DNA from: Nocardiopsis ansamitocini
Lineage (GTDB): Bacteria > Actinomycetota > Actinomycetes > Streptosporangiales > Streptosporangiaceae
DNA: 64,000 nucleotides
NCBI RefSeq assembly: GCF_030268225.1
Contig: NZ_BSQG01000012.1
Location: forward strand, 1-64,000
Reading direction: 5' to 3'
This document shows positions 3,036 to 33,414 of this stretch, piece by piece (within the stretch, counting starts at the first letter, position 1; each line of letters starts with the position of its first letter). Both the position numbers and the translations under genes were made by a program. The notes under the pieces were generated by a model, which did no database searches, had not been told where the DNA came from, and saw only the letters and a program-made list of their open reading frames with translations.

Positions 3036-3036
3036 G

Positions 3037-6385: not shown

Positions 6386-6479
6386 GATGAACTCCAGATT
6401 CGTCGGTTTCCATCGTGGTGGCCTCCGCCCGATGGGGAGGAGTCAGGACAACCCCTGACTCGATAACGAAGGCTCGTTG

Positions 6480-9740: not shown

Positions 9741-9752
9741 CCGAGGCTCCCC

Positions 9753-9959: not shown

Positions 9960-9997
9960 GAGTAACCTCCAACGCGGGGTCGGTGTCCCAGCCTCGT

Positions 9998-12472: not shown

Positions 12473-12874
12473 CAATGAAGCCCCTCCAGTAAGCTCAGCG
12501 CCACGGTCGCTGTTGTCCATAAACGACTGTAGGCAGCCGGGGAACAATTGACCTGAAAACGCTACGGGTGCGAGTGTCCCGCCCCAATACCCCACTCTTC
12601 GAAACGCAATTGAAGTGGAAGATGAATTACGTCCACCCTATTTTGGGACAACTTCAGGCTACGGTTTGGCCGAGAAACCTCACGCAAAAATTTGGGCGCG
12701 AACCACAGAGGCCGGACCCTCCCGAAGAACCAGCTTCACGAGCGAGCATTCCCCGAATCAAAGTTTTCTGAAAATAACTGCAACCAAATAGTAACCTCGC
12801 GTAGTGGCCCCGTCAAGATTTACGGTAAGATCCACCTTCCCCGGAAAAACTTCCCGCACACGAAAGCGATTCAT
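12473..12874. other. Intergenic gap upstream of the LAL regulator gene
   Basis: This 402-base stretch lies between the loading NRPS stop and the regulator start. It is visibly richer in A and T than its surroundings around 12596-12870. It has no credible gene and probably holds the regulator's promoter. I could not fix a convincing -35/-10 pair by eye. Confidence 0.4.
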
Positions 12875-15800: not shown

Positions 15801-17596
15801 GGGCTCACCCCGAGCACCGCGCCGACGGTGTCGGCAAGATCGGGGTTCCGCAGCCTCACCAGCGGGCGGGGACGCTCCACCGTCGGACTTGCCGAAACCG
15901 TCGGCAGACTGCGCTCCATCCACCGGTGACGGCAGGAACCACGCCGGATCTTCCCACTGGTGGTGCGCGGGATGGCGCCGCGCCGGACGAGGACGACGTC
16001 GTGCAGCGCAAGACCGTGTTCTGCGACGACAGCCTCGCGGACGGCCTCGACGACGGCTTCGGCCTTCTCAGGGCGAAATCCCCGGACAACCTCGTGCACG
16101 AGCACCACTTGCTCGGACACACCGTCATCCACCGAGAAGGCGGCCCCTCCCGATGGACGCAGATCCGGATGGGCACGTTCGGCCGTGTGCTCCAAATCGT
16201 GCGGGTAGTGGTTACGGCCGCGCACGATCATCAGATCCTTGTTCCGGCCGGTGACGAACAGCTCTCCGGCCAACACGAAACCCTGATCTCCTGTACGGAG
16301 AAAAGCGCGCTCGCCATGACCGGGCGACCTGGCGCCGAAAACCCTTTCGGTTTCCTCAGGACGCCCCCAATACCCGGCGGTCACCCCCCGGCCGCTGACC
16401 CAGATCTCGCCCACCGTCCCGGGTTCGCATTCTTCCCCTTCCTCTCCGACGACGATCAGAAGGTCATCGGAGCGAGGCCGGCCACAGCTGGTCAAAGCCA
16501 CCGATTTTCCGGACGCATCGATCCCCGTAACGGCACGCCCCGACGCGAGTTCCTCCCGGCCGACCTCGATGACGGCGGGAGGCGATTCGCGGCCGGCATT
16601 TCCGGAGACGAACAACGTGGCCTCAGCGAGTCCGTAGCACGGAACGAACGCCGACCGCCGGAAACCGGATGGCGCGAATGCCTCCACGAATTCCGCCATC
16701 GTGCTCGCCCGAACAGGTTCGGCACCGGTCAGCGCATGGCGCCAATTACTGAGGTCCAACGAGGCCCGCTGCTCGGGATCAATCCGTCGTGCGCATTCCA
16801 GGTACGCGAAGTCCGGCGCGACCGATGCTGTGGCGCGCGTCCGGCTGATCGCGGCCAACCAGACCATCGGCTTGCGAAGAAACGTCATAGGGGCGAGCAG
16901 CGTAGAGGGGTAGCCCGCGTAGACCGGTTGGAGGATAGCGCCCACGAGCCCCATATCATGATAGGGCGGCAGCCAGCTCACGCATCGGCTGTCAGGATCG
17001 GCTCCGATCACGTCCCTGATGACGGCGGAGTTGTGGATGAGGTTGGCGTGCCGGACCATCACGCCTTTCGGCGCTCCGGTCGTCCCAGACGTGTATTGCA
17101 GAAAAGCCAGGTCCTCACTCCCCGGCGCCTGCCCGGACCAGTCATCGGCGGCCTCGTCCGGCACCTCATCGGTGACCAGGGTGGCCAGTTGGGCTATCGC
17201 GGCGGCGGAGTCGGGCCTGGACCGTATTGCCGTCAGACTCGCCCGGTCGCCGAGGGCCACGGTGACGCCCGCGTCACCGCTGACCGCGATCATGCCGGGA
17301 AGCCCTCGCTGCCCAGTAGGCAGATAGACGGGTACGGCGATCACTCGGGCGTACAGGCAGCCGAAGAACCCGACGATGTAATCGATTCCCGGCGAGTACA
17401 GCAGCAAGGCACGCTGCCCCGCCCGGCCGAGCCCTGCCGCGACCGCCCTGGCCCTCATGTCCAATTCGCCGTAGGTGATCGAGCGGGTGGCCCCGTTCGC
17501 CTCGAGGAACTCGAAGGCCAGCCGTGCCGGCGTGTTCGCGGCACGTTCACGCAGTACGTCGACGATGGTTTGGTGGGTCGTGGAAGAAAAAATCAC
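12875..17596 (-). CDS. Loading NRPS: FAAL-ACP-C-(degenerate A)-PCP
   Basis: This protein of about 1573 residues starts with a fatty-acyl-AMP ligase (about 1-580; LQYTSGTTGAPKGVMV, SWLPPYHDMGLVG, MIVRGRNHYPHDLE). An ACP (NGLDSLTAV), a C domain (CAHHIVVDGWS), a ruined A domain and a PCP (FFELGGHSLLATR) follow. The FAAL charges a fatty acid onto the ACP, and the C domain joins it to the first amino acid, so the product should be N-acylated. The A region is dead: the place of TSGSTG reads LALVDESGLLFDHT, there is no GPTE motif, and after LYRTGWQGRW the whole A8-A10 subdomain is missing. The PCP must be loaded by another protein. I prefer the GTG at 17596 (GGAGGAG upstream, FAAL-like start IFSSTTHQTIVDVL); an in-frame GTG at 17635 is possible. 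Confidence 0.93.
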   Translation of the reverse strand: MIFSSTTHQTIVDVLRERAANTPARLAFEFLEANGATRSITYGELDMRARAVAAGLGRAGQRALLLYSPGIDYIVGFFGCLYARVIAVPVYLPTGQRGLPGMIAVSGDAGVTVALGDRASLTAIRSRPDSAAAIAQLATLVTDEVPDEAADDWSGQAPGSEDLAFLQYTSGTTGAPKGVMVRHANLIHNSAVIRDVIGADPDSRCVSWLPPYHDMGLVGAILQPVYAGYPSTLLAPMTFLRKPMVWLAAISRTRATASVAPDFAYLECARRIDPEQRASLDLSNWRHALTGAEPVRASTMAEFVEAFAPSGFRRSAFVPCYGLAEATLFVSGNAGRESPPAVIEVGREELASGRAVTGIDASGKSVALTSCGRPRSDDLLIVVGEEGEECEPGTVGEIWVSGRGVTAGYWGRPEETERVFGARSPGHGERAFLRTGDQGFVLAGELFVTGRNKDLMIVRGRNHYPHDLEHTAERAHPDLRPSGGAAFSVDDGVSEQVVLVHEVVRGFRPEKAEAVVEAVREAVVAEHGLALHDVVLVRRGAIPRTTSGKIRRGSCRHRWMERSLPTVSASPTVERPRPLVRLRNPDLADTVGAVLGVSPGKVGADTSLVANGLDSLTAVRLAGAVRDSFGVEVPVDQLLDGMTLCGLDHCVNTLPKTSGPPRQEPPGRVGATRAQQWMWLLDQRIGASGACHVVGGVRLTGGLDPLLLWRSLNILVDRHEALRSVFRLRADGGIGVEVLDEVVLEPTQVDVSGTPEPDLSVRAVIDELAEQRFQLEEGPLLRAVLIRGADDDWFLGVCAHHIVVDGWSLGLLLSELGACYRLLVSKEALPALPSPASAITDSPLSQADTVGAERFWREHLNEAQAVDLPLDHPMPTEPKWKADSLPFGLSLAQTERLKAYAAAHDATPFMVLIAGLGAVLARWTGQDKPVIGTPSTGRDPATAEHIGMFVNVVPTALDMSGSPTFGQLVDRARTASLSSYPHRRLPFEQILRLAGPEKPSFRAPLVRVVLVVQNVPMYPWQVGDVRAEPFERPAPGAQFELYLRVAEHQDGRIAGHVVYMSELFESASIQALLDALRNLLDTAPTLPDVPVADLPLFVPTEERGLSQPPASLPQRFLHERVEERAVREADACAVTVGTRSLSYRDMEADANRLARLLRDYGVGPEDTVLVETPMVVESVVAVLAVLKAGACVALGASEVRPKAVLGVRGGATGERWGDAVKVWLDTEPQAGYSAKRVEAAVSPRSLALVDESGLLFDHTAAVSRMAALPTLGATEVVLAQPSVVELMWLLGAGATVVLRREGDSVLDLIVEHGVTTLVGSADSVDRLLAFPDPSVGMLRRIVCREPLPFSLVDRVRTVLPSAELVEPAIVARADVFDTKGRLLPLGAVGEIRIGGEAVPRGYANGPARTAERFPPDPVTHGSRLYRTGWQGRWTAAGKVETVRPTDRPVPVGQTAMETDIAPRNQVELRLAGMWSEVLGLAEVPVNRDFFELGGHSLLATRVAVRIRSDFGVDVPVAALLAGGLTVAGLAERVQADQFDRASANDLAELLEGIAGISDEQAAQLLSGKTEFDS

Positions 17597-18011
17597 GCTT
17601 GGCACTCCTCCAACCGATTGAACCGGTGAAGCCACATGATCAGTCCCTCGCTATGGGAAAGTGATCGGATTCCAGGCGCTCACCCAAAACCGCGCGTCGT
17701 CCTCTCGACGCGCACCCCTGTCAGGGCCATTCGTTTGACAGTGGAATCCGTGTTCCGACACCGGTCTCCCCGGACCTTCAGGGCAAAAAATTTCTTGCCC
17801 CAGGGACGATCTTCTTATCCGCTCACGAACCGGCCCTTCTCGTGCGATCGGTCAGAGTTCGCTTTGCGCCATGCCGGCCGCGGCTGCCCCTTTCTCCCAC
17901 TTGCGCACAAACCGACCACGGTGGAGTTCACCTTCGTCCCGAGGCGGGGCGCCCCCGCCAGGAGAAGCGGACAGGCACCGCCGTACCGGCCCGTGGAATC
18001 GGCGATCGCGT
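17597..18011. other. Intergenic gap upstream of the loading NRPS gene
   Basis: These 415 bases separate the amidotransferase stop from the loading NRPS start and break the otherwise tight operon, so a promoter here is likely. They contain the near-perfect palindrome at 17781-17800 and a short GC hairpin near 17943-17959. No gene is credible. Confidence 0.4.
17781..17800. promoter_or_regulatory. 20-bp near-perfect palindrome, candidate operator
   Basis: GGGCAA and TTGCCC face each other across an A/T-rich centre; the full 20-base element is symmetric except for one base pair. It lies about 185 bases upstream of the loading NRPS start, inside the largest gap of the cluster. Such a site fits binding by a dimeric regulator. 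No second copy was noticed elsewhere in the cluster. Confidence 0.3.
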
Positions 18012-18743
18012 TCATCCACGCATTCCACCCCGATCGTTCGTGACCGGAGAACACGCTGCGACGAACGCCGCGAACACCTCTTCGCCTTTCGCGATCTCGG
18101 GGTGCCACTGCACCCCGAGGACGAATCGCGCTTCCGGATCCTCCAGCGCCTCGATCAGACCGTCCCCGGTGTGGCCGGTCGGCGTCATCTTGCCGGGGTC
18201 CGCGACCCCCTGATGGTGATGGGAGTTGACCGAGGCACGCTCGCCGAAGAGGTCCGCGGCACGACTTCCGACAACGAATCGAACCTCGTGCTCCCCCATT
18301 TCCCCTTCCCGTGGGCAATGCTCTTCGTTCCCCAAGGAATCCGGTAGGTGCTGGTACAGGCTTCCCCCTGTCGCGACCGCAAGCAGCTGCATGCCGCGGC
18401 AGATGCCGAGGACCGGTGTCCCCTTGGCCAAAGCCGCTCTGAGCAGGAGTAGTTCTGTGGCGTCTCGTTGCGGACGAGCCCGGTCGGTGGCACTGTGCCG
18501 GGGGCTGCCATAGAGCGCGGGGTCGATGTCGGCACCGCTCGGCAGCAACAACCCGTCAAGGTGGTCGAGGATGTCGGCCTCGACGGCGCCTGGCGGTAGA
18601 ACCACCGCTTGAGCGCCATTATCCGTGACCCCTTGGACGTAAGAGTGCTGGATGAGGGTCGCCTGGGAGTCCCAGATATCCCAACGAGCCGACTCACAAT
18701 AGCCGGCGATACCGATCACGGGTCGACGTGTACCGCGATTCAT
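18012..18743 (-). CDS. Class-I glutamine amidotransferase-like hydrolase (PuuD / peptidase C26 type)
   Basis: This 243-residue protein has the class-I amidotransferase triad: nucleophile C115 in VLGICRGMQ, His and Glu in GVQWHPE, plus the NSHHHQGV block typical of gamma-glutamyl-GABA hydrolases (PuuD, peptidase C26). Such enzymes cleave gamma-glutamyl amides. In natural product pathways they can remove a gamma-glutamyl protecting group or feed ammonia. No glutamyl ligase is seen nearby to pair with it. I start it at the ATG at 18743, which overlaps the upstream SHMT-like stop (TGATG); a longer frame to 18788 exists. Its place between precursor enzymes and the NRPS suggests a precursor role. 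Confidence 0.87.
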   Translation of the reverse strand: MNRGTRRPVIGIAGYCESARWDIWDSQATLIQHSYVQGVTDNGAQAVVLPPGAVEADILDHLDGLLLPSGADIDPALYGSPRHSATDRARPQRDATELLLLRAALAKGTPVLGICRGMQLLAVATGGSLYQHLPDSLGNEEHCPREGEMGEHEVRFVVGSRAADLFGERASVNSHHHQGVADPGKMTPTGHTGDGLIEALEDPEARFVLGVQWHPEIAKGEEVFAAFVAACSPVTNDRGGMRG

Positions 18744-20125
18744 CACGACCTTGAAACCTGCTCTCGACCGCTTCGGATATCCGGCCAACCGGGCAACCCC
18801 GGGTTGTCGGAGTTGTCATGGCCGGCGGTGACGGCCTCGGTGTACAGAGAAGCCGCATCACTCAGCACCGGTGAGTCCGGTTCGAAGGTGAAGCCGTACC
18901 CGGGACGCCCGCGCAACCGGGCAACACGCGCCGACAACGCGGACGGGTGTCCGGTGTCACGGACCGCGTCCGCAAAGATGTCCGCGAGTTCCGGCAAGTC
19001 GTCCACCGTGATACCGCGGTAGGTCGGCTCGTTCAGACCGACACGGACTCCGGCCTCCACGAAACCGGGCAGACCTGTCATGAAGTTCACCCGGATACCG
19101 GCTTGGAACAGGCGGTGGCTTGCCACCTTTGCCGCGATACCTTCCGCTGCCGTGTCCAACCACAACTGATGCCCTGCCGAACATCCACGATCGGCGGCGA
19201 CCACGGGGATTCCGCGCTCGACCAACAGCCGGCCGAACCGCCGGGTGTTGTCGGCGACCGCGCGCGCGTACTGCTCACCACCGAAATCACGGAATTCCAA
19301 TAGCGCCATACCGAGACTTATGGTGGTGGCGAAATGGTGGCTGCTGATCAGATAGTCCTGGGTCTGCTCGACCCGTTCGGCGACCTTGGGACTCCGTGTC
19401 AGGAAGACCGCCTTCTGCGGCCCGGGAAAGGTCTTGTGGGTGGAGCCGCCGAAACTGTCGGCGCCGCAGTCCAAGGGGTTGGCGTACACACCGCCGAGGA
19501 CCAGACCGAACCAGTGGCTCGCGTCGACGTGTACCAGTGTTTCGGGACTGGCAGTGCGAACCGTCCGCACGAGGCTTGGGATGTCCACCGGGAAAAGGCA
19601 ATGGGACTGATCGACGTAGACCAGGGAAGGGCGTTTCTCAGCCAACAACTGGGCCGCGTGCTCCAGGTCCAGGCAATGCGGGTCGGGTCCGCTGAGGCAG
19701 TCGACGCCTAAACCCATCCGTTCGGCGATCAAACCGGTCGCGTAGTGGCCGCCGTTCTCCGGCGAGATCGTCATCACCGTCGAACCGGGCGAGCCGCCCA
19801 GCGAGGCCAAGACCAATGCCATCGCGCTCAGTCCGCTCAGCGGCCGAACCGACACGTGCCCGGCCTTTCCCAACTGGGCCAGCAACGGCACGGTCAGACT
19901 CGTCTCCAACTCCCACAGGTTCTGTCCCCCGCGAAAGTTCCAGCGGTCCGGGTTCCCCTGCTCGTTGAAGAAATACCGGTGATAGGCATCGGTGAGCATG
20001 GGCAGTTTCGCCAGACCGGACATGGCGTTCTCGGACGGCACCATGTTCAGGACGTGAGAGGCCGCCCGCTCATTGGCCACGAGCATTCGCAGAACGTCTT
20101 CCACGGTGAGATCCGGTTTCTGCAT
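18743..20125 (-). CDS. Divergent SHMT-like PLP aldolase/transaldolase
   Basis: This 460-residue fold-type I PLP protein is distantly SHMT-like. It keeps VPSEN (30-33), THKTFPGPQ with the PLP lysine at K231, and HVDASHWFG, but it lacks the AEGYPG and GGHLTHG signatures, reading FFNEQGNPDRWNFRGG instead. It is clearly different from the canonical-looking SHMT at 3037. SHMT relatives of this degree include threonine aldolases and transaldolases that make beta-hydroxy amino acids. A role in supplying an unusual beta-hydroxy or alpha-branched amino acid is inference. Start: ATG at 20125 behind AAGGAGG; the longer frame is out-of-gene sequence. It follows HypF by 20 bases and overlaps the amidotransferase start. 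Confidence 0.82.
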   Translation of the reverse strand: MQKPDLTVEDVLRMLVANERAASHVLNMVPSENAMSGLAKLPMLTDAYHRYFFNEQGNPDRWNFRGGQNLWELETSLTVPLLAQLGKAGHVSVRPLSGLSAMALVLASLGGSPGSTVMTISPENGGHYATGLIAERMGLGVDCLSGPDPHCLDLEHAAQLLAEKRPSLVYVDQSHCLFPVDIPSLVRTVRTASPETLVHVDASHWFGLVLGGVYANPLDCGADSFGGSTHKTFPGPQKAVFLTRSPKVAERVEQTQDYLISSHHFATTISLGMALLEFRDFGGEQYARAVADNTRRFGRLLVERGIPVVAADRGCSAGHQLWLDTAAEGIAAKVASHRLFQAGIRVNFMTGLPGFVEAGVRVGLNEPTYRGITVDDLPELADIFADAVRDTGHPSALSARVARLRGRPGYGFTFEPDSPVLSDAASLYTEAVTAGHDNSDNPGLPGWPDIRSGREQVSRS

Positions 20126-20145
20126 CCCTGCCTCCTTGGGTTCGT

Positions 20146-22530
20146 TCACTGGTTCTCCTGCCGGGCCCGGATCAGAGCTCCGGCAACCATCACCTGACCG
20201 AGTGAGATCCCGCCGTCGTTGCACGGCACCAACCGGTGGCCGTACGCGTGGAAACCGGCTCGACGCAGCTTCACAAGGCAGTTCACCGCCAAGAACTCGT
20301 TGAGGAAAACGCCACCGGAGAGCACGACCTGCCGGATTCCCCGGGCAGCGCGAAGTGCGAGGCACCGGTCGACGACCAGCCCGACCACTCCTGAGTGGAA
20401 TCTGCGACTGATCACCGAAAGCGTTTCGCCGGCCGCGAGGTCCACCGCGATCTGTCGAACCACCGGGCGCGGGTCGACCTCCACACCGTCGGCCCGCGGG
20501 ACATGATCGAACGAATAAGACTCGGTCAAGGCGAGGTCTCGATCCAGCAGTCCTTCCAGCTCTATCGGCCCTTGCGCCTCGTATTCGGCCCGGGTGCAAA
20601 GACCCAGCAACGCGGCGACTCCGTCGAACAAGCGCCCCATACTGGATGTCGGTGGCGCGTTGACCCCTTTGCGGATCATCGTGGTGAAAACATGCCTCTC
20701 CCGCTGCGACAGGTCACGGAGGGCCGGGAAAGCGGCGCACGCGGCCTCCGAGGTGCGGAAAGCGTCCAACGCAAGGGCGAAACCGGTCCGGACCGGTTCG
20801 CGCACCGCCTTGTCGCCTCCCAACAACGGCAGGTACCGCAACCGGGAAACTCGATCGACACGCTCGAAATCACCGAGCAGGAACTCGCCGCCCCAGATCG
20901 TTCCGTCCCCTCCATAACCCGCACCGTCGAAGACGACTCCAAGCGTGGTTCCCGACAACCGGTTCTCCGCCATGCAGGCGGCCATGTGCGCATGGTGATG
21001 TTGCACCGGCAGCACCTCGGCCACGTCCTGTTCCACGGCCGTCCTGGTGGCTCTGAACGACGGGTGGGAGTCGCAGGCTATGTACCGTGGCTGCAATTCG
21101 TGCAACGCGGCCACGTGGGAGGCGGTCGTCTGATGTGAGGAGAAGGTGGCGTCGTTCTTCAGGTCTCCGATGTGCTGGCTGATGAACACCGATTTCCCGT
21201 CGGCCACCGCCACGGTGGTCTTCAATTCCGCCCCTAGTGCGACCACCGGCTCCTGGGAATCGTCCACGCGCACCGGATAGGGCGCGTACCCTCTGGACCT
21301 TCGCAGGAAACTGACCAACGGTTCGTCGAGTTCCGGGTGGACCGAACAGCGCACCACGGAGTCGTCGACCCTGATCTGGATGTCCCGGTCGTGGTGGAGT
21401 ACGAGGTCGGCGACGGAGAACAGCCGGGCAAGGGCTTCGTGGTTGCGGTACTCGATGGGGTGACCGGAGGCGTTTCCGCTCGTCATCACCAGCAGGTCCG
21501 GGCCAGGGGGTAGCAACAGCAGGTGGTGCAACGGTGTGGAGGGCAGCATCACCCCGAGACTGGGATTGCGCGGCGCCACCTCTTCGGGGATCGCGCCCGG
21601 TATCTTTCGCAGCAGGACGATCGGGCGCGCAGGTGCGATGAGCAGCTCCGCCTCGGCCGGGCCCCACTCGGCGAAGCCCGAGACGCCTGCGAGGTCCGCG
21701 GCAAGCAGGGCGAACGGTTTGGAGTCGCGTCGCTTGGCACGCCGCAGCCGTAGCACCGCGTCCCGGTCGCGTGCGTTGACTGCGAGGTGAAAACCACCAA
21801 CGCTTTTCACTGCGACGATCCGACCGTTGGCCAACGCGTCGCTGGCCAGCCGAAGCGCGTCCTCGCCTTCGGCGAAATCACCTGTCGGCCCAGCGAGCGT
21901 CAACCTTGGGCCACAGGCAGGGCAGGCATTCGGCTGGGCGTGGTACCGCCGGTCGCCCGGGTCGGTGTACTCCTTTGCGCAGTCGGGGCACATCGCGAAC
22001 CGGGCCATGGTCGTCTGCGCGCGGTCGTAGGGCAACTTCTGGATGAGGGAGTACCTCGGACCGCAGTGGGTGCAATTGGTGAACGGATAACGGTAACGGC
22101 GGTCGGCCGGATCAAGGACCTCCTGGAGGCAATCCCCGCACACGTGCGAATCCGGCGCGACGAATGTCCGTGCCCGCACGGTGCGAACGCTTTTCCTGAT
22201 CTCAAATCCGGTCGGCGCTGTCGCGGTGTCGACCGGGACAGCTGTCTCGAGCGAAATACGATCGACGCGCGCCAACAATGGAGCTTGTTCGGTCAACGCG
22301 GCAAGAAATTTTTTGAGGACCGGAACGAAACCGTTCACTTCGATCCTGACGCCAAGGGTGTCGTTGAGCACCCAACCCGTCAACCCCATCGCGGTGGCCG
22401 TCCGGTAGACGAAGGGCCGGTACCCTACTCCTTGGACGACCCCGTTGACCTCGATCGACCAACGCTCGACAGGCGCTCCCGGATCCGCTTCAGCAGGATG
22501 ACGGATGTTCTGATGCCGCATGTGTCCCAT
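20146..22530 (-). CDS. hypF: HypF-like carbamoyltransferase
   Basis: This protein of about 794 residues has the full HypF architecture. An acylphosphatase domain (VQGVGYRPF with its Arg; GWVLND with its Asn) is followed by two zinc-finger pairs (CGDCLQE, CTHCGPRY, CPDCAKEY, CPACGPR), a YrdC-like domain (KSVGGFHLA, KPFALLAA, MTSGNASGHP) and a Kae1-like domain with metal-binding HHHAHMAACMAEN. HypF turns carbamoyl phosphate and ATP into a carbamoyl-adenylate and passes the carbamoyl group to the C-terminal Cys of HypE. Nothing catalytic looks lost. The start at 22530 lies just past the HypE stop; 22521 is also possible. With no hydrogenase genes in view, it probably serves the peptide pathway. 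Confidence 0.95.
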   Translation of the reverse strand: MGHMRHQNIRHPAEADPGAPVERWSIEVNGVVQGVGYRPFVYRTATAMGLTGWVLNDTLGVRIEVNGFVPVLKKFLAALTEQAPLLARVDRISLETAVPVDTATAPTGFEIRKSVRTVRARTFVAPDSHVCGDCLQEVLDPADRRYRYPFTNCTHCGPRYSLIQKLPYDRAQTTMARFAMCPDCAKEYTDPGDRRYHAQPNACPACGPRLTLAGPTGDFAEGEDALRLASDALANGRIVAVKSVGGFHLAVNARDRDAVLRLRRAKRRDSKPFALLAADLAGVSGFAEWGPAEAELLIAPARPIVLLRKIPGAIPEEVAPRNPSLGVMLPSTPLHHLLLLPPGPDLLVMTSGNASGHPIEYRNHEALARLFSVADLVLHHDRDIQIRVDDSVVRCSVHPELDEPLVSFLRRSRGYAPYPVRVDDSQEPVVALGAELKTTVAVADGKSVFISQHIGDLKNDATFSSHQTTASHVAALHELQPRYIACDSHPSFRATRTAVEQDVAEVLPVQHHHAHMAACMAENRLSGTTLGVVFDGAGYGGDGTIWGGEFLLGDFERVDRVSRLRYLPLLGGDKAVREPVRTGFALALDAFRTSEAACAAFPALRDLSQRERHVFTTMIRKGVNAPPTSSMGRLFDGVAALLGLCTRAEYEAQGPIELEGLLDRDLALTESYSFDHVPRADGVEVDPRPVVRQIAVDLAAGETLSVISRRFHSGVVGLVVDRCLALRAARGIRQVVLSGGVFLNEFLAVNCLVKLRRAGFHAYGHRLVPCNDGGISLGQVMVAGALIRARQENQ

Positions 22531-22534
22531 CCGC

Positions 22535-23581
22535 TCAGCACAGTCGCGGCAGTTCGGCGCCCTGCAATTCCTCGAGTATCCGAATATGGCCGTCCCGGTC
22601 CCGCATTCGCACGGCTGACTCGGTGTCATCCGCCACCTCACCGACGACGACCGCTCGGCGACCATATGGATGGCTATGAAGTGCGGCGAGGACGCGTTCC
22701 ACCGCTCCTGGATCGAGGAAGAGGCACACGCAGCCCTCGTTCGCGGTGTTCAGGGGGTCGATACCCAGCATGTCGCACGCCATTTTGACCTCCGGGTCGA
22801 CCGGTAGCGCCTGTTCATCGATTCGCAGCCCGGCTCCCAGCGCTTTGGCGTACTCATGCAGAACCGCCGCCAGGCCACCACGGGTCACGTCCCGAACGGA
22901 CCTCACGGCGCCGTCCTCGACTGACTCGAACGCTTCGGTGATCAGACCGTTGAGTGGGGCGCAATCGCTGGATACCCGACTCTCGAAGCCGAGGCCTTCA
23001 CGAACGGACAGCAAATGCACGGTGTGATTGCCGATCGGTCCGCTCAACACGATTTGATCGCCCGCTCGCACGTCGGTCATCCGCAAAGGCGTCCGCTCGA
23101 ACACACCGATCCCGGTCGTGTTGAGGTAGATCTGGTCCGCTTCTCCCGGACGGACGACCTTGGTGTCGCCTGCCACTATCAGCACACCGGCCTGACGTGC
23201 GGTCTCCCGGATCGACTCGAGCACCCGGGTCAGTGCCGCGACCGGAAGACCGGCTTCAATGATCATGCCGAGCGTGAGGTACTTCGGGGTGGCGCCTATT
23301 ACAGCCAGGTCGTTGACCGTCCCACAGACCGCGATCTTTCCGACATCCCCGTTTCCGAAAAACGGCGGGTCCACCACGAACGAGTCGGTGGTCATCGCCA
23401 ATTGTCCGGCCGCGACGGAGAGGACGGCGCTGTCTTCCATCTGTCCGATATAGACATCGCCGAGCACAGCCACGACGTACTCGACCAGCTCACGGCTGAG
23501 CCGGGCTCCGGTCCCGTGGTCGAGCACGATCTGCCGGCCTGCGAAAGAACGTGTTCCTGTCAGCACGCGGTTCCCGTCCAT
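22535..23581 (-). CDS. hypE: HypE-like carbamoyl dehydratase (thiocyanate-forming)
   Basis: This 348-residue protein of the PurM/HypE superfamily has the ATP-binding region DSAVLSV ... MTTDSFVVDP and FFGNGDVGKIAVCGT, the DVTRGGLA motif, and the diagnostic C-terminus ELPRLC ending in Cys348. In hydrogenase maturation this Cys receives the carbamoyl group from HypF, and HypE then dehydrates it to an enzyme-bound thiocyanate. Retention of the terminal Cys implies that the reaction is intact. The cyanide-accepting HypC/HypD pair and hydrogenase subunits are absent from the window. It lies between the cysteine hydrolase and HypF with small gaps. The ATG at 23581 has only a weak ribosome site. Confidence 0.95.
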   Translation of the reverse strand: MDGNRVLTGTRSFAGRQIVLDHGTGARLSRELVEYVVAVLGDVYIGQMEDSAVLSVAAGQLAMTTDSFVVDPPFFGNGDVGKIAVCGTVNDLAVIGATPKYLTLGMIIEAGLPVAALTRVLESIRETARQAGVLIVAGDTKVVRPGEADQIYLNTTGIGVFERTPLRMTDVRAGDQIVLSGPIGNHTVHLLSVREGLGFESRVSSDCAPLNGLITEAFESVEDGAVRSVRDVTRGGLAAVLHEYAKALGAGLRIDEQALPVDPEVKMACDMLGIDPLNTANEGCVCLFLDPGAVERVLAALHSHPYGRRAVVVGEVADDTESAVRMRDRDGHIRILEELQGAELPRLC

Positions 23582-23610: not shown

Positions 23611-24195
23611 TCAGGGGGTGACGAAGACCTTGCGCGGCAGCCCGCCTTCGACATCCAACGTCCGAAGGATCTCGTCGGATTCGGCGACCGTGGCGCAGTA
23701 GCCGTCCAACCAGTCCAGTGCCCTGATCCGGTCTTTGTCCCGGGCCGAGACCACGCAGTCACTGGGCACCCAGACGTTGTAACCGCGGAAGAAGGCATCC
23801 GCGGCGGTGGTCTGGACACAGATCTGCCCCTGCATCCCGGTCACGATGACGGTGTCCACGCCAAGCGACTGCAGGCGCTCGTGAAGGTCGGTCTCGAAAA
23901 ATCCGCTGTCCTTGTTCTTTTCGACGAGGATGTCGGACTCGTCGAGGAAAACGGGCAGGATCTCGACTCCCTGAGTACCGCGTTGCGCCGGCAATCTGCC
24001 CTCGTAGCGTTCGGCGATGGGATCATCCGGCAGGTTGACGAGCTGAAGATGCAGTACGTGGTGTCCACGACGGCGGATCTCGTTGAGGAATCGCGAGAAA
24101 CTCGGAGTCGCCTCCTCGATCGCTCTGATCCGTTCTTCGTTCTTGTTCACCAGGTCGTACTGCAAATCGTTGGTGAGCACTGCGACCTTGCCCAT
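23611..24195 (-). CDS. Isochorismatase-like cysteine hydrolase
   Basis: This 194-residue protein of the isochorismatase/nicotinamidase superfamily has a readable triad: D10 (LTNDLQYD), K93 (LVEKNKDSGFF) and C126 (GMQGQICVQTTAADA). The superfamily includes nicotinamidase, N-carbamoylsarcosine amidase and isochorismatase. Residues around the Cys lack the aryl-enterobactin pattern and there is no ArCP domain, so a siderophore role is unlikely. Being next to HypE/HypF makes an amide- or ureido-cleaving role attractive, but that is inference. The start at 24195 is chosen for GGGAG upstream and the family-typical N-terminus. Confidence 0.85.
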   Translation of the reverse strand: MGKVAVLTNDLQYDLVNKNEERIRAIEEATPSFSRFLNEIRRRGHHVLHLQLVNLPDDPIAERYEGRLPAQRGTQGVEILPVFLDESDILVEKNKDSGFFETDLHERLQSLGVDTVIVTGMQGQICVQTTAADAFFRGYNVWVPSDCVVSARDKDRIRALDWLDGYCATVAESDEILRTLDVEGGLPRKVFVTP

Positions 24196-24301
24196 GAGGA
24201 CTCCCACCCTTGATACGGCGATGCGCGACGTTTCGTACAACACGTTGGCATCGGCCAGATGCATTCAGTAGTCGGGCGAAACCCTGACAGACGCTACGAT
24301 C

Positions 24302-25708
24302 TCAGTCGAATACTCGTCTGTGCTGCTGCGCGGCCAACTCGCCGAGCAACGCTATGTAGTCGGTCGCCAATTGTTCGGCTCTGGCGTGGGTGAACCTGTT
24401 CGCCCGGTAACGGAGCAGTACGAACGCGTCTTGATCATCGTGCCTCAACCGCAGGCTCAACGGACGCAGCACGTATTGGCGGGGCGGGTTGACGCGTTCA
24501 ACTCGAAGGCCGAGGGCCTTCTCCACGATTTCCGGTTCGCGCTCCGCCGTGAACTGGACCTGGGCCATTCGCTCCATCAAGTCGGTTCCGTCGAGGTGGG
24601 GGGCCAACAAGTGCGGTGGCAGGTCATTGTGGAGGAAATCGCGGACGACCTGATCGTGGGTCCTCCGGATCAGTTCGTCCCAGGTCGGGTTCGCGGACAG
24701 GTCGACGCGCACGATCACGTCATTGGAGAAGTCCGCGACCAGGTCGCGAAGTTCGGTGCGGTCCCGATAGGAGATCGGTGCGTTCACACCAATGTCTTGT
24801 TGTCCGGAGTTCCTGGCCAACAAGACAGCGAACGCGACAAGCCCCACTGTGTAGAGCGTCGTGTGCCGTTTCTTCGCCGTCTTCCACAGCTCGGCGAACA
24901 GAGAACAGCCGACAGGCATATTCACCATGCCGCCGAGCTGCGCCTCTTCCGGTGTCTCGTCCCCCGGCTCGACATCGGTGGGCAATTCCGCCGGCAGCGC
25001 GCCTGCCATCCGCTCGGACCAGTAGGCAGTCAGCTCGGCCCCCCGCGCACCGGCAAGGCGTCGGGCGTGCCACGACGCGAAATCGGACCACTGGACCGAC
25101 AGCGCGGGCAGCACCGGCTCGGTTCCGCTTACAACAGCGCCGTAGCACACCGCCAGGTCCCGGACCAATACCTCCAGAGTCCTGGCATCGGCGATGATGT
25201 GATGGACGAGAAGGAGTGCGATGTGGTCGTCGTCGGCCAACCGGAGCAATCGCAACCGGGCCAGGGGACGCTGATCGAGCGGGAACCGCCGGTCGACTTC
25301 CTGTCGACTGATCTCATCACACTCCGCCAGGCCAGACACACGGGTAACCTCGATCGGGACCCTCAGCCGATCCGCGATCACTTGTGTCAACTGGCCGTGC
25401 TCCATGCAGAGCGCGGTCCGCAACGTCTCGTGTCGGGCGATCACCATGTTCCACGCGTCCGTCAATTTTCCCACGTCGAGCTGGCCGCGCAAACGCAATC
25501 CGCTGATAATGGCCAGGGCCGGACCGGGCCGCCGTTCGATCCCTTGCCACATCCCTTGTTGGGACACGGCCGCGGGGAACCGGGATTCCCCCGGCTGGCG
25601 GGGAAGCGACGGGATCCGCTCGGCCCTGCCTCTCCGCGAGCGCAACAGCTCGGCCTCAAGTTCCCCTCGCTTTGCGAAGTCCGAGGCGTCCACCCGTGAC
25701 GTGCTCAT
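24302..25708 (-). CDS. Free-standing condensation-domain protein
   Basis: This 468-residue single C-domain protein has active site HHIIADA (H169-H170 to D174-A175): both His and the Asp are kept, but the usual Gly is Ala. Later motifs such as PISYRDRTELRDLVADFSND correspond to the C-domain core that in modules reads GTPxAGRxxxEL and GxFVNT. It carries no A or PCP domain, so it must act between carriers on other proteins or join the chain to a free amine or alcohol, including a release step. Start: ATG at 25708 behind GGAGGAACGAGC, overlapping the thioesterase stop by ATGA; the longer frame upstream is not needed. Confidence 0.88.
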   Translation of the reverse strand: MSTSRVDASDFAKRGELEAELLRSRRGRAERIPSLPRQPGESRFPAAVSQQGMWQGIERRPGPALAIISGLRLRGQLDVGKLTDAWNMVIARHETLRTALCMEHGQLTQVIADRLRVPIEVTRVSGLAECDEISRQEVDRRFPLDQRPLARLRLLRLADDDHIALLLVHHIIADARTLEVLVRDLAVCYGAVVSGTEPVLPALSVQWSDFASWHARRLAGARGAELTAYWSERMAGALPAELPTDVEPGDETPEEAQLGGMVNMPVGCSLFAELWKTAKKRHTTLYTVGLVAFAVLLARNSGQQDIGVNAPISYRDRTELRDLVADFSNDVIVRVDLSANPTWDELIRRTHDQVVRDFLHNDLPPHLLAPHLDGTDLMERMAQVQFTAEREPEIVEKALGLRVERVNPPRQYVLRPLSLRLRHDDQDAFVLLRYRANRFTHARAEQLATDYIALLGELAAQQHRRVFD

Positions 25709-26478
25709 GCTCGTTCCTCCGTTCGCGCCGGCGACAGGCCGTCGGCGAACAAGGCGATCAGCTCCGGAGGAGCGTCGATGAAACTGTGGTGGTTCCCGCC
25801 CAAGAGCCGGAAGGTGGTCTTTCCGGTTTCCGACCACCCGCCCATGAGTTGGTGCGGAACCTCGACGTCCTGGTCCCATCCGATCGACGTGATCGGGCAG
25901 GCCACCCTTGCCGGTCGCTCGACGCGGTATGCCCTGTGCACCTCGATGTCGGAGAGCAGCACGTCAAGGGTCAACGAAACCATGTCCGCCCGTGGTTCAC
26001 CACCGAGCCTCGTGAGCAGGCCCCGTACTTCCTCGGCGAGTTCGTGGGGAGCCATCGACAGGAACCGGCCGTATGGCCCGTCGTGAGGCGCGACTTGCGA
26101 CGAGACGAACAATCGGGCCGGCGTGGAGGCACCGTTGCGGGCCGTCCGCAGGACGGCTTCATAAGCGAGCAGAGCCGAGCTGCAATGACCGAAGAACCCG
26201 AACGGACGGTCCAGGTAAGGCGTCAAAGCATCGACCATCTCCTCTGCGAGGGCATCGAACGAGGAGAAGTTCGGCTCTCGCAACCGGTTCTCCCTCCCGG
26301 GCAGCTGGACCGCGCACAGTTCCACCTCGTCGTCCTCGCCGATGAACCTCGGCCAATGCCGGTACATGCTCGCACCGCATCCCGAATAGGGAAGACAGAA
26401 CAGACGGGCAGCCACCCACTCGGAGGGCTGGCTCAGGAGCCATCGGGTGGACCGAACCGACTTCGGCCGCATAGTCAT
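25705..26478 (-). CDS. Type II-like thioesterase with a Cys nucleophile
   Basis: This 257-residue alpha/beta hydrolase of the NRPS/PKS external thioesterase type shows FCLPYSGCGASMYRHWP, VQLPGRENR, FGFFGHCSSALLAYE and GWDQDVEVP with GGNHHSFID. The nucleophile elbow, normally GHSMG, is GHCSS: the codon at the nucleophile is TGC, so Cys99 replaces Ser. Acid (Asp) and base (His) positions look intact. Cys thioesterases are known in a few NRPS systems, for example in beta-lactone release. No thioesterase is fused to an NRPS here, so this one may perform release as well as proofreading. It starts at the ATG at 26478, overlapping the P450 stop by ATGA. Confidence 0.9.
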   Translation of the reverse strand: MTMRPKSVRSTRWLLSQPSEWVAARLFCLPYSGCGASMYRHWPRFIGEDDEVELCAVQLPGRENRLREPNFSSFDALAEEMVDALTPYLDRPFGFFGHCSSALLAYEAVLRTARNGASTPARLFVSSQVAPHDGPYGRFLSMAPHELAEEVRGLLTRLGGEPRADMVSLTLDVLLSDIEVHRAYRVERPARVACPITSIGWDQDVEVPHQLMGGWSETGKTTFRLLGGNHHSFIDAPPELIALFADGLSPARTEERA

Positions 26479-27713
26479 CGCCTCCTGGCAACCAATGGGA
26501 GATGTTTGATGCCGGCGATGAAGTTCGAGCGCAAGTGCTCGCTCTCCCCTGCCGGTTCGAAATTCGAAAAGGACTGGTCCAGCTCGTCGAACAGCACTCT
26601 CAGGGAAAGTCTGGCGACCGAATGGCCGACGCAGTAGTGCGCACCGCTGCCGAACGCGATGTGTCTGTTGCCCTTGCGGGAGGGGTCGAATGTGTACGGC
26701 GCTTCGAACACCTCTTCGTCCCGATTGGCCGAACCGATCCAAACGACGATCGCGTCGCCGGCACGAATGCGGCGGCCCGCCATTTCCAGATCGCTCTGAG
26801 CATGCCTCATGAAGTGATTCGCCGGTGACGACCAGCGCAACGCCTCCTCGATGGCCGGATCGTCGATCCCCGGCCCGGCCAGCATCCGCGTCAGTACGTC
26901 CGTGCCGGCGAGTTCCGCCAGCATCGCGGTGGGCACGTACGGTGTGGTCACCAGGGCCCCCAGCAGCAGGCTGTAGCAGTTGGCGACCACCTCGCCCGGG
27001 GCCGCCGCGCGGCCGTCGACCTCCATTCCCAGCAGCAGACCGATCAGGTCGTCGCGCTGTGGTTTTCGACGGCGGTCCCGGATGGTGTCGGAGAAATAGG
27101 CGAACAACTCTCGATGCGCGCGAACCAGAGTGCTCCCAGGATCGCCGTCCACCGTGTACTCGGGGTCGTCTGGGGCAACCGCCATCAGGGACAACCGGGA
27201 AATCTCAGGGTAATCGGCCTCGGGCAACCCGAGCAGCGAACCAGCGGCGGCCACGGGCAGCCCGCCGATCGCGTCCGCGAAGTCGAAGGGTTCCTGGCTT
27301 CTGGCAGGGAGCAGCAAACGCCGAACGTGGGCGGTGAGATCGTCCCGGAGCCGATCGATCGACCGCATGGCCAACGCCCTGCGCAACGGCTCGCGCATCT
27401 GTCGGTGTCGTGGCGGGTCGGTGGCCACCAGCTGCCGACCGGCAGCCGGATCAGACTTGCCCAGCAGATTGAGCAGGGTACCGCGTTCGGAGGTGAACGT
27501 GGCCGAATCGCGCAGTACCCGGATGCCCAGCTCGTGTGTGGTCACCGACCAGAACCCGGGACCGCGGTCCGTCTCCTGCCAGCGCACAGGCTCACGCAGT
27601 CGCATCTCGCGCCACACCGGGTGCGGGTCGCCGTGCGCGTACAGTGAGGGATCGGCCAGGTCGACCCTGTCGAGATCGATCTCCCCGGCATGTGGCGGGC
27701 AAGCCATCCTCAT
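26475..27713 (-). CDS. Cytochrome P450
   Basis: This 412-residue bacterial class I P450 has the haem motif AFGSGAHYCVG, the ExxR helix in EEALRWSSP and the I-helix LLLGALVTTPYVPT. The Thr-Thr is present, but the usual acidic residue ahead of it is not. The GALVTT form and the setting between NRPS genes fit P450s that hydroxylate carrier-bound amino acids, which is inference. No ferredoxin gene is within the cluster. It overlaps the upstream A-PCP stop and the downstream thioesterase start by ATGA, so the three are coupled. Confidence 0.93.
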   Translation of the reverse strand: MRMACPPHAGEIDLDRVDLADPSLYAHGDPHPVWREMRLREPVRWQETDRGPGFWSVTTHELGIRVLRDSATFTSERGTLLNLLGKSDPAAGRQLVATDPPRHRQMREPLRRALAMRSIDRLRDDLTAHVRRLLLPARSQEPFDFADAIGGLPVAAAGSLLGLPEADYPEISRLSLMAVAPDDPEYTVDGDPGSTLVRAHRELFAYFSDTIRDRRRKPQRDDLIGLLLGMEVDGRAAAPGEVVANCYSLLLGALVTTPYVPTAMLAELAGTDVLTRMLAGPGIDDPAIEEALRWSSPANHFMRHAQSDLEMAGRRIRAGDAIVVWIGSANRDEEVFEAPYTFDPSRKGNRHIAFGSGAHYCVGHSVARLSLRVLFDELDQSFSNFEPAGESEHLRSNFIAGIKHLPLVARRR

Positions 27714-29890
27714 GGTGTTCCCCCGTTCTTTCCGGCCGGTGACGCATCAAACGAATCGATCAGCTCGGCCAGCTCCAGCACGGTGGGTCGGAGATAGAAC
27801 GTCCGTGCCGACACTTGGATCCCGCGGTCGCTCTGGAGCCGATCAAGAAACTCCGCAGCGGTCAGGGAATGTCCTCCGAGTTCGAAGAAGTCGTCCTCGA
27901 CTCCGACCTGTTCGATCTCGAACAGCTCGGCCCATAGCTCACACAGATACCGCTGGACGAATCCGACCGGAGGTACATACGGATTTGGCGACGGTCGGGA
28001 AAGGGAATCGTCTGGTGGGCGCAGCGCTGCTCGATCCACCTTTCCGGCAGTCGTGAGCGGCACCTGATCGATTACGACCAGCTTGGACGGGACCAGATGC
28101 TCCGGCAACCGTTCGCGCAGCCATATTCGTACCCGACCGGCCAGATCCCCCTGGCCTTCATCCTCGGCGACCAGGTAGCCAACGAGTTCTTTGCCGTTCC
28201 GCGCAGGAAACGCGACCACCACGCACCCCGCCACGGCGGGATTCTGGTTCAACACGTTTTCGACCTCACCGGGCTCCACCCTGTAGCCGTTCACCTTGAC
28301 CTGATGGTCCAGGCGGCCCAAGTAGTCCAGCTGTCCGTCCGGCCTGGCGCGGACCATGTCTCCCGTCCGGTAGAGCCTGGAACCGGGATGCCTGCCGGTA
28401 GGGTCCGGTACGAATCGATTCGCGGTCCTCGCGGGATCGCCCAGATAACCGCGGGCCAGCCCCGATCCACCGGCGTACAGCTCTCCGGCGATCCCCGGAG
28501 GAACCGTCTGAAGGTCCGGGTCGAGTACCAGGACTCGTGACCCCCTGATCGGTACACCGATAGGCAACGGCGCATCCGGGTCGACAGATCGGATCCTCGC
28601 GCAAGTCGTGAAAGTGGTGTTCTCGGTCGGTCCGTAGCCGTTGGTGAACTCGATGTCCGGATAGGCCTCCAGCAGACGGGCCGCGGCAGACGGGTCCACC
28701 ACGTCGCCTCCGACGAGCAGGTGGCGTACCCCGGCCAGATCCGGTAGATGTGCGACGACAAACCGATGGAACAAGCCGGAGGTCAACCACAGCACCGTGA
28801 CGCCCTCATCGCGTATGGTCGCGCCGAGTCGGCTCAGATCCGGGCGGCCGGGCGGGAACAACACGAGCCGGCCACCGTTGCACAACGGCGCCCAGAGCTC
28901 CAGTGTGGACGCGTCGAAAGCGATCGGCGCGGCTTGCAAGAACACGTCGTTGCGCTGGAAGTCGGCCCAGTCCGGGCGACGTACCAGCCGTGTCACCGCC
29001 GAATGCGGAACAGCGACTGCCTTCGGCACCCCGGTAGATCCGGATGTGTAGCTGACGTACGCGAGGTTTCCCGGTGCCCCGACGAACTCCGCACCGGGAG
29101 CGCGGGCGGACGGCTCCAGTGGCACGACGTCGGCTCCCGACTCGGCGAGCCGCGAAATCAGCGCGCGATCGGACAGGACGACCCGAACCCCCGCCTGCCT
29201 GATGAGAGCGGCCAGCCGTTCGGGAGGCGACTCCGGGTCAAGTGCGAGGTAGGCGGCCCCCGCGTTGAGCACGGAGAGCAGTCCGGCCACCAACCGCGGC
29301 GACCGTTCGGCCAGGACGCCCACTACCTCCTCTTCGCGTACCCCTCGCTCTCTCAGCCGCTGGGCCAGCCCTTCGGCCTGTTCGGTCAGCTCCTGAAATG
29401 TAAGGGAACCGTCGGCCTCAGAAGTCACGGCGACCGCCTCTGGCGTACGCGTGGCCCATTCCCCGACCATGTGGTGCAGGCACCCGTGCGAGAGCGATGA
29501 GTCGTTTTCATCGGGGACCCCGGGGGGTCCGGTGAAAGGAATGGTCGCTACCGGCTGCTCAGCCGGGGCAAGGGCGGCTTGACCGACCAGACCGGCCGTG
29601 AGCTCCACATCCGGCCGGCTCATGGTCGCGGACCTCAGGGCGGGGCCTGTCACCAGTTCCACGCCGTCCACTACGGCCCCGTCCGCCTCCGGCAATCCCT
29701 CGGCCAGGTCCCCGAGCGTGGTGAGCGGCGTGAACGCGACCGTGATGCTGCCAGTAGCCCAGCGGACCGGCACATGGTCGCTCCCTGTGCGCCGGTGCAT
29801 CACCGCCACAAACGCGGCGAGTATTTCACGGAATGGCAGATCCGCTGCGGCCGGCGCCAACCGGACTGGTTCCACACCCATCCACCTCAT
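27710..29890 (-). CDS. NRPS: C-domain remnant + A (valine-like) + PCP
   Basis: This protein of about 726 residues has a 130-residue N-terminal piece that looks like the tail of a C domain (REILAAFVAVMHRRTGSDH). A full A domain follows (SYTSGSTGVPKAV, NGYGPTENTTF, YRTGDMVRARPDG, GRLDHQVKVNGYRVE, TTAGKVDR), then a PCP (FFELGGHSLTA). The HHxxxDG half of the C domain is gone, so it cannot condense. Specificity residues read about DALWVGGTFK, matching the branched-chain aliphatic (valine) family DAxWxGGTFK. I use the ATG at 29890, which overlaps the upstream stop by ATGA. Its aminoacyl-PCP must be used by a C domain on another protein. Confidence 0.92.
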   Translation of the reverse strand: MRWMGVEPVRLAPAAADLPFREILAAFVAVMHRRTGSDHVPVRWATGSITVAFTPLTTLGDLAEGLPEADGAVVDGVELVTGPALRSATMSRPDVELTAGLVGQAALAPAEQPVATIPFTGPPGVPDENDSSLSHGCLHHMVGEWATRTPEAVAVTSEADGSLTFQELTEQAEGLAQRLRERGVREEEVVGVLAERSPRLVAGLLSVLNAGAAYLALDPESPPERLAALIRQAGVRVVLSDRALISRLAESGADVVPLEPSARAPGAEFVGAPGNLAYVSYTSGSTGVPKAVAVPHSAVTRLVRRPDWADFQRNDVFLQAAPIAFDASTLELWAPLCNGGRLVLFPPGRPDLSRLGATIRDEGVTVLWLTSGLFHRFVVAHLPDLAGVRHLLVGGDVVDPSAAARLLEAYPDIEFTNGYGPTENTTFTTCARIRSVDPDAPLPIGVPIRGSRVLVLDPDLQTVPPGIAGELYAGGSGLARGYLGDPARTANRFVPDPTGRHPGSRLYRTGDMVRARPDGQLDYLGRLDHQVKVNGYRVEPGEVENVLNQNPAVAGCVVVAFPARNGKELVGYLVAEDEGQGDLAGRVRIWLRERLPEHLVPSKLVVIDQVPLTTAGKVDRAALRPPDDSLSRPSPNPYVPPVGFVQRYLCELWAELFEIEQVGVEDDFFELGGHSLTAAEFLDRLQSDRGIQVSARTFYLRPTVLELAELIDSFDASPAGKNGGTP

Positions 29891-33371: not shown

Positions 33372-33414
33372 CCGGCTCGTTCCGGCCATCCCTCAGACGC
33401 CAGAGGAACCAACC

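Follow-up and report, generated by a model that had tools for sequence, protein, structure and literature searches.

Introduction

To our knowledge, the thiocyanate carried by HypE is the only biological route known from carbamoyl phosphate to a cyano (CN) group, and it is tied to hydrogenase. In [NiFe]-hydrogenase maturation, as PMC12134894 sets out, carbamoyl phosphate is turned by HypF into carbamoyl-AMP, HypF carbamoylates the Cys at the C-terminus of HypE, and dehydration by HypE then yields the thiocyanate; an isothiocyanate form of HypE is proposed in PMC4506123. In 2020 the decRiPPter study (PMC7794033) reported hypE/hypF homologues in a small-molecule cluster that has an ATP-grasp gene but lacks the other hyp genes, and its authors inferred a novel function. 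Here we describe a window of 64,000 nucleotides from Nocardiopsis ansamitocini (positions 1 to 64,000, the start of contig 12, NZ_BSQG01000012.1) in which HypE and HypF adjoin an isochorismatase-fold enzyme, which we call Iso, inside a predicted lipopeptide-type cluster built on a fatty acyl-AMP ligase (FAAL) and nonribosomal peptide synthetases (NRPS). The finding is real, conserved and larger than the initial annotation of this window had seen: Iso is constant in the actinobacterial clade, and the module reaches far past NRPS clusters. We give a probability of about 0.6 to the reading that Iso-HypE-HypF is a hydrogenase-independent organic cyanation module recruited to this cluster and acting by the steps proposed below.

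The Iso-HypE-HypF triad

The triad and two further genes that matter for the argument are these:

20146..22665, minus strand: HypF, carbamoyl-phosphate-dependent carbamoyl:HypE ligase with all four domains (TIGR00143, Pfam); real start probably 22530
22535..23581, minus strand: HypE, carbamoyl dehydratase, C-terminus ELPRLC (TIGR02124)
23611..24264, minus strand: Iso, cysteine enzyme of the isochorismatase fold that completes the triad (PF00857); ATG probably at 24195
18743..20599, minus strand: SHMT2, pyridoxal-phosphate (PLP) enzyme resembling serine hydroxymethyltransferase (SHMT) and threonine transaldolase (PF00464); real start probably 20125
18012..18788, minus strand: GAT, class-I amidotransferase/gamma-glutamyl hydrolase (C26) with catalytic GICRG and WHPE kept (PF07722, 198.6 bits)

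The initial annotation had described a four-domain HypF and a HypE ending in Cys, and profile searches agree with it on both. HypF scores 728.9 bits against TIGR00143 (cut-off 466.1) and carries the Pfam domains AcP (acylphosphatase), zf-HYPF (two stretches), YrdC, HypF_C and HypF_C_2 (Kae1-like), and HypE scores 426 bits against TIGR02124 (cut-off 251.6) and ends in ELPRLC; a HypE profile built from three sequences matches solved HypE at 300 bits. The HypF ATG at 22665 overlaps hypE, yet the acylphosphatase domain starts only around residue 68-70. A second ATG, at 22530, follows the stop codon of hypE closely, so translation probably begins there.

The window HypF has the catalytic Arg and Asn of the acylphosphatase domain, the eight zinc-binding Cys of the zinc fingers and the HHHAH motif of the Kae1-like domain. 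Each position checked is present in 41-42 of the 42 triad copies, the sole exception being a gap, and in 57-58 of the 58 copies from outside the triad. HypE ends in PRLC in 42/43 triad copies (the exception, L119, is truncated) and three HypE motifs are each retained in 42/43. The window HypF and HypE are complete and are full members of their families, and since the catalytic features checked are retained, HypE-thiocyanate should form. In L119, from Lonsdalea britannica, the HypE and HypF reading frames appear broken (7464-10875).

Absence of a hydrogenase system

The genome measures 5.53 Mb and is 100% complete. Searches of the whole genome (HypB not being part of them) turned up no HypA, HypC or HypD and no large subunit of a NiFe hydrogenase (PF00374), and control genomes gave matches in each of these searches. 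One HypE lies over the cut-off, a second match on contig 1 reaching 53 bits and so falling far under it, and one HypF was found at E ≤ 1e-150 among three matches at E ≤ 0.001 (the one listed scoring 729 bits). Neither the HypC/HypD scaffold nor a hydrogenase to mature, the two marks of [NiFe]-hydrogenase maturation, is thus present in these searches, and we take this to mean that the pair does not serve a hydrogenase. Genome-wide, then, no hydrogenase large subunit and no second hypEF set at these thresholds contradicts the hydrogenase-independent use that the initial annotation had read from the window. When 34 actinobacterial triad genomes were searched for HypD (L101 left out), 21 had none and 13 had it. 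An orphan set of hydrogenase maturation genes was considered as well and is rejected on the same whole-genome negatives (HypA, HypC, HypD and the hydrogenase large subunit) together with the comparison of loci.

In the taxonomic family of the host, 181 of the 341 genomes have a HypF match at E ≤ 1e-150, with at most 49% identity to the window protein among the matches listed, bar one of 65% in Nonomuraea guangzhouensis. This species has a second, ordinary HypF at 45%, next to which lie a HypD-like gene and a HypE whose C-terminus is PRIC.

Recurrence, contexts and phylogeny

The initial annotation had suggested that the hypE-hypF-isochorismatase block might recur beside NRPS genes in other genomes, and it does. 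In the Nonomuraea guangzhouensis NRPS cluster the identities are 71% for Iso, 68% for HypE, 65% for HypF, 58% for SHMT2 and 59% for GAT, and homologues of the stand-alone condensation (C) domain protein, the P450, the thioesterase (TE) and the adenylation-thiolation (A-T) protein are present too. A phylum sample (n=396) added one close copy, in Streptomyces fructofermentans (Iso 82%, HypE 73%, HypF 67%, SHMT2 66%, GAT 59%, stand-alone C 47%, SHMT1, the second SHMT-fold enzyme of the cluster, 57%), and two other genomes that matched at only 48%. The Iso subfamily (E ≤ 1e-35) occurs in 2/341 family genomes (the host and N. guangzhouensis) and 2/396 phylum genomes (the host and S. fructofermentans), which in both samples are the same genomes that have a HypF of at least 65% identity.

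We also scanned 84,980 species genomes with the C-terminal part of HypF and kept the best 80 of 142 confirmed relatives, a list that rests on two short peptide patterns and is therefore not a census. Among them are 35 actinobacterial loci (L070-L103 and L146) at 63-72% identity, and Iso adjoins hypEF in 35/35. It does so in 7 of the 45 other loci, from Citrobacter, three Sorangium, Psychromonas, an Acetobacteraceae metagenome-assembled genome (MAG) and Lonsdalea. The gene order is Iso-HypE-HypF in all 42 triad loci but L114, where Iso comes after HypF. HypD occurs in 0/42 triad loci as against 30/32 ordinary loci (L115-L149 without L119, L138 and L146), and Iso has no match in these 32, the same-locus counts being bounded by the 7/42 triad and 15/32 ordinary loci that are shorter than 19 kb.

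We group the triad loci into six contexts, an arrangement of our own whose names rest on representatives, only some loci being profile-annotated. Context A is the actinobacterial NRPS type with SHMT2 and GAT in 10/10 (the window, L070-L076, L078, L087); the two genes accompany the window and all 9 of the actinobacterial loci in the scan that have NRPS hits, and none of the other loci in the scan of 80. Context B has an ATP-grasp gene, MutE, a fatty-acid-desaturase-like gene and a decarboxylase (296.8 bits against L-2,4-diaminobutyrate decarboxylase, under the cut-off). Context C combines a diaminobutyrate transaminase (TIGR00709, 515 bits, over the cut-off) with ATP-grasp, GNAT and M20 genes, an EamA exporter and a weak haem-oxygenase-like match that is under its cut-off. 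Context D is that of Nocardia, with a thiamine-pyrophosphate (TPP) enzyme, an Fe-S protein, an FMN dehydrogenase, an aminotransferase and a P450. Context E, with aminosugar-type genes, comprises two Amycolatopsis, a Saccharothrix MAG and one Streptomyces and holds an epimerase, a DegT aminotransferase, an inositol-monophosphatase-like gene, NUDIX, a major facilitator superfamily (MFS) gene and a carbamoyl-phosphate-synthase-like gene, the set being incomplete in some loci. Context S is found in Sorangium, with a C-A-T-C-A-T-TE protein and, in two of the three loci, an ABC exporter.

Some of these loci deserve a closer description. In Sorangium cellulosum (L110, L111 and L113, about 1-12600) we see a minimal version of the system, one dipeptide NRPS (annotated in L111) with Iso-HypE-HypF, the ABC exporter family being present in L111 and L113; this cluster probably offers the simplest product to solve. 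In Psychromonas sp. SP041 (L112, 1592-12142) the triad stands with a diaminobutyrate-type transaminase, a weak haem-oxygenase-like protein, GNAT and EamA, as in Streptomyces of context C, and with a glyoxalase and an M19 dipeptidase; part of the context C set thus spans phyla. The Amycolatopsis loci L080 and L090 (10800-17300) hold the triad with an epimerase, DegT aminotransferase, NUDIX, a sugar transporter and the carbamoyl-phosphate-synthase-like gene, and L090 in addition has the inositol-monophosphatase-like family. Their product could be an aminosugar or aminocyclitol. Trehazolin and allosamidin carry a 2-aminooxazoline on an aminocyclitol, and trehazolin-like chemistry is our guess for context E; we found no paper on the trehazolin or allosamidin gene clusters in the open-licence literature.

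Trees of HypF, HypE and Iso were quick IQ-TREE runs with SH-aLRT support only. The HypF tree has 67 of 100 collected sequences (L104 and L119 are out, their best matches being too short; L027 and L030 were not in the set), and the HypE and Iso trees likewise do without L119. All 36 actinobacterial triad copies fall into a single clade of the HypF tree (support 100). Within it the window groups with 8 further copies of the NRPS type (99), and L087 branches close to the base; an NRPS-linked group, for which the initial annotation had thought it worth looking, is there. A wider clade of 47 rows (100) takes in Sorangium, Citrobacter, Psychromonas and the Acetobacteraceae MAG as well. The ordinary HypF of the host's own family fall far from the window copy, and the triad copies are a clade apart from the ordinary HypF sampled. 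The context groups require 5 changes on the HypF tree, 6 on the HypE tree and 5 on the Iso tree, where the minimum possible is 5, and the NRPS label changes twice in the HypF tree and once each in the Iso (support 58) and HypE (84) trees. That the three trees sort nearly alike by context points to a unit moving together and argues against late capture of a hydrogenase pair. We consider that the triad is best read as a portable module, one that is found in many small-molecule gene clusters.

Partner enzymes

In the PDB, the AlphaFold model of Iso (pLDDT 93.6) is nearest to 3hb7 (Z 25.9, rmsd 1.9, 177 aligned) and to 3hu5 (Z 25.2), the two being tied. By its fold and the Asp-Lys-Cys triad in the window protein Iso groups with the isochorismatase-like cysteine hydrolases; Asp33 and Lys116 are the residues expected beside the Cys in that triad. 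Cys149 and Cys190 are each present in 43/43 triad copies and Cys170 in 42/43. Six Nocardia copies of context D (L086, L091, L094, L095, L098 and L100) have D33G and K116R and retain Cys149, and another copy, that of Nocardia alni (L146), retains Asp33 and Lys116. Loss of the Asp and Lys but not of Cys149 is what would be expected of thiol transfer rather than of an amidase, and the six Nocardia proteins are a natural test of the mechanism. We infer that Iso would be a thiol enzyme standing in place of HypC/HypD.

SHMT2 scores 200 bits against TIGR04506, the fluorothreonine transaldolase family, whose cut-off is 650. Its PLP Lys is retained in 10/10 context A copies. In fold (AlphaFold model pLDDT 70.3, residues 18-68 low) it is tied between SHMT (Z 32.1) and ObiH (Z 31.7), and as it is about equally near both, the structure does not decide the reaction.

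One of the ten context A clusters holds a further clue. Directly behind GAT in the Nonomuraea cassette lies a CN-hydrolase, which matches nitrilases in the PDB at E 1.6e-51, cyanide dihydratases at about 1e-37 and other CN_hydrolase-family chains at 3.7e-13 or weaker. It is thus closer to true nitrilases than to other proteins of the CN_hydrolase family, although it scores 190.8 bits against the Nit6803 family TIGR04048 (cut-off 502.6) and falls outside it. Its presence in this cassette suggests that the pathway involves a nitrile or cyanide.

The surrounding gene cluster

By family profile annotation, HypF and HypE lie in the middle of a minus-strand run from 264 to 31803, which counts 18 genes and not the 17 of the operon first described. 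It holds NRPS proteins, a FAAL, a stand-alone C domain, a TE, MbtH, a LuxR regulator, a P450, two TauD-type oxygenases and two SHMT-fold enzymes, and the NRPS architecture is FAAL-T-C-A-T, C-A-T, C-A, A-T and C-(A_C)-T. The other members are:

29887..31803, minus strand: NRPS C, A-domain remnant (A_C only) and T (domain annotation)
27710..29920, minus strand: NRPS A-T, Val-like code (domain annotation)
26475..27713, minus strand: cytochrome P450 (family match); 59% identity in the Nonomuraea cluster, where it also adjoins an A-T protein
25705..26742, minus strand: thioesterase (PF00975)
24302..25879, minus strand: stand-alone condensation domain adjoining the triad, motif HHIIADA (PF00668)
12875..17635, minus strand: FAAL-T-C-A-T lipo-initiation NRPS, three AMP-binding stretches and two carrier domains (domain annotation)
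9998..12595, minus strand: large regulator of the LuxR family (domain annotation)
9753..9959, minus strand: MbtH-like protein (domain annotation)
6480..9740, minus strand: NRPS C-A-T, Ser-like code (domain annotation)
4410-5513 and 5387-6385, minus strand: two TauD/clavaminate-synthase-like oxygenases, to which proteins of the S. albicerus cluster correspond at 63% and 68%
3037..4413, minus strand: SHMT1, ordinary SHMT subfamily, with a 57% counterpart in the S. fructofermentans cluster
264..3035, minus strand: NRPS C-A without T (domain annotation)

The contig begins inside the cluster, with a C-A protein that lacks its T domain, so part of the NRPS is probably on another contig. The Ser-like code of the C-A-T protein and the Val-like code of the A-T protein were called at the Stachelhaus positions, and neither code hints at where a special residue is loaded. 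The Nonomuraea and S. fructofermentans clusters each have, close to the triad, a counterpart of the stand-alone C domain at 47% identity; none was seen directly before Iso in L070, L072 and L076. Beyond the run, a plus-strand set of clearly higher third-position GC content (32421-39403; MaoC-like, MFS, MaoC-like, TPP enzyme, class III CoA transferase, GntR/UTRA regulator) resembles an ordinary catabolic operon and would bound the cluster.

Proposed mechanism and alternatives

How might the triad work? HypF would use carbamoyl phosphate and ATP to make carbamoyl-AMP and so carbamoylate the C-terminal Cys of HypE, which with a further ATP would dehydrate the carbamoyl-Cys to HypE-Cys-S-CN; both steps are established for the hydrogenase HypEF and are carried over to this pair on the strength of conservation. 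The CN would then not be handed to iron on HypC/HypD. Instead, Iso would bind the cyanated HypE tail and deliver the CN to an organic nucleophile. For clusters of the NRPS type the acceptor would be a small amino acid made or activated by SHMT2, attacking through a PLP carbanion or through an amine or hydroxyl, and the product could be a nitrile, a cyanamide or, after cyclisation, a 2-aminooxazoline or guanidine. GAT may trim the residue, which would join the peptide perhaps via the stand-alone C domain. In other clusters the triad would serve other amines, for example in the aminosugar, diaminobutyrate-type and dipeptide clusters.

The genes imply transfer of CN rather than of carbamoyl, since a pathway ending at the carbamoyl group would not need HypE and a CN donor is therefore the likely output; we also count in favour of cyanation the carbamoyl-phosphate-synthase-like gene of an Amycolatopsis triad locus. 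Does the CN go to carbon or to nitrogen? SHMT2 and the nitrilase favour carbon, by way of a PLP carbanion, in the NRPS type, and in the other contexts the enzymes that make amines speak for nitrogen, giving a cyanamide and then perhaps a cyclic isourea or guanidine. The initial annotation had likewise proposed that CN or carbamoyl is passed to the peptide: its pair acting outside hydrogenase maturation stands, and its cyanation step is suggested by the HypF/HypE features and C-terminal Cys that are kept and by the nitrilase of one related cluster. The wider claim, that Iso-HypE-HypF may be a general mobile organic cyanation system in peptide, amino-acid and aminosugar pathways of several phyla, with a cysteine enzyme replacing HypC/HypD and with nitriles, cyanamides, cyclic isoureas or guanidines formed without arginine-type amidino donors, we would back at even odds.

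Several observations weigh against cyanation by the triad. The sole unbiased count of Iso beside hypEF is the 35/35 of the actinobacteria, as the seven distant triad loci were chosen for carrying Iso. HypD is present elsewhere in the genome in the 13 of 34 triad genomes noted above. Six scan loci (L104, L105, L107, L108, L109, L138) have neither Iso nor HypD, and five copies without Iso, three from Rhizobiales and two from Clostridia, fall inside the 47-row HypF clade, which is thus not purely a triad clade. Asp33 and Lys116 are found in 37/43 Iso copies, which have the full Asp-Lys-Cys triad, so that Iso could be an amidohydrolase of the ordinary kind, with the product as its substrate. Neither the non-NRPS contexts nor the three NRPS loci of Sorangium contain SHMT2, which therefore is not a general acceptor-maker, and a nitrilase was found in one of ten NRPS-type clusters. 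As to the loci that lack both Iso and HypD, L104 is from Paraburkholderia (and is cut by its contig end), L105, L107 and L138 are from Rhizobiales, and L108 and L109 are from Clostridia.

If only the carbamoyl group were transferred, Iso moving the HypF/HypE thiocarbamate to an amine or hydroxyl, the outcome would be a urea or carbamate. This would suit an enzyme whose closest relatives, by sequence as well as by fold, are isochorismatase-like amidohydrolases (N-carbamoylsarcosine amidase and the biuret, triuret and maleamate amidases among them) and whose catalytic triad is mostly intact. However, other clusters already achieve such a transfer with one-protein carbamoyltransferases of the HypF/TobZ type, and the near-constant PRLC tail and three motifs of HypE, like the nitrilase of one cluster, would be left without a reason, and we hold this explanation to be unlikely. 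The same intact triad would also fit a cyanation in which Iso is a housekeeping hydrolase, clearing for instance carbamoylated or cyanamide by-products, with the transfer itself left to another enzyme or to spontaneous attack, and the five Iso-less HypF copies of the wider clade agree with an Iso that is dispensable in this manner. Yet the Nocardia copies have given up Asp33 and Lys116 and not Cys149, and Iso never leaves hypEF among the 35 close relatives, so that we find this somewhat less probable still.

Alternatively, cyanide or thiocyanate might be released, as the active product or as a reagent of Strecker or cyanohydrin type, with Iso or the nitrilase tuning or detoxifying it. Thiolysis of a thiocyanate can liberate cyanide, and the Nonomuraea nitrilase is also near cyanide dihydratases; but a nitrilase was found in one of ten NRPS-type clusters, and the many amine-building contexts match a tailoring step better than a poison, which makes free cyanide distinctly improbable. 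The last alternative, a displaced or relic hydrogenase maturation pair that has no role in the peptide, gains from the two proteins being full family members. It is largely refuted, and we give it almost no credence, by a genome with no hydrogenase large subunit, HypA, HypC or HypD, by open and conserved genes in a separate clade, and by the same block in NRPS clusters of several genera.

If the triad is indeed a cyanation module, natural-product biosynthesis would gain a new logic for forming C-N bonds. Dozens of clusters not yet characterised would be predicted to yield a chemical handle (nitrile, cyanamide or their cyclised forms), and the module would offer a three-protein in vitro system, free of the HypC/HypD iron scaffold, in which to study transfer of HypE-bound CN.

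Comparison with known systems

We found no description of the triad, its NRPS link or its chemistry in the open-licence literature, which leaves most subscription journals outside, where one may exist. HypF/TobZ-like carbamoyltransferases of antibiotic pathways, GdmN among them, share the use of carbamoyl phosphate and the chemistry of a Kae1-like domain; they differ in acting without HypE and in making carbamates. With isochorismatase-like cysteine hydrolases (N-carbamoylsarcosine amidase, BiuH, RutB, maleamate amidase) Iso has the fold in common and, in most copies, the Asp-Lys-Cys motif. It is unlike them in its HypEF neighbour, in the QICVQTTAADAFFRGY core of most copies, in the invariant Cys190 and near-invariant Cys170, and in the six Nocardia copies without the Asp and Lys. 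SHMT2 shares the SHMT fold and PLP Lys with the L-threonine transaldolases (ObiH, 7k34) and fluorothreonine transaldolase, but it lies well below the TIGR04506 cut-off and is equally near ordinary SHMT.

The decRiPPter cluster resembles contexts B and C, which also carry ATP-grasp genes, and the passage that describes it (PMC7794033) names no isochorismatase-type partner, NRPS clusters, clade, other phyla or mechanism. HypE and HypF of [NiFe]-hydrogenase maturation belong to the same families and have the same domains, checked catalytic residues and C-terminal Cys. In contrast to them, the pair described here has no HypD at its locus and often none in its genome, and its HypE tail is PRLC where PMC4506123 gives PR(I/V)C; it forms a clade of its own and has Iso as its partner.

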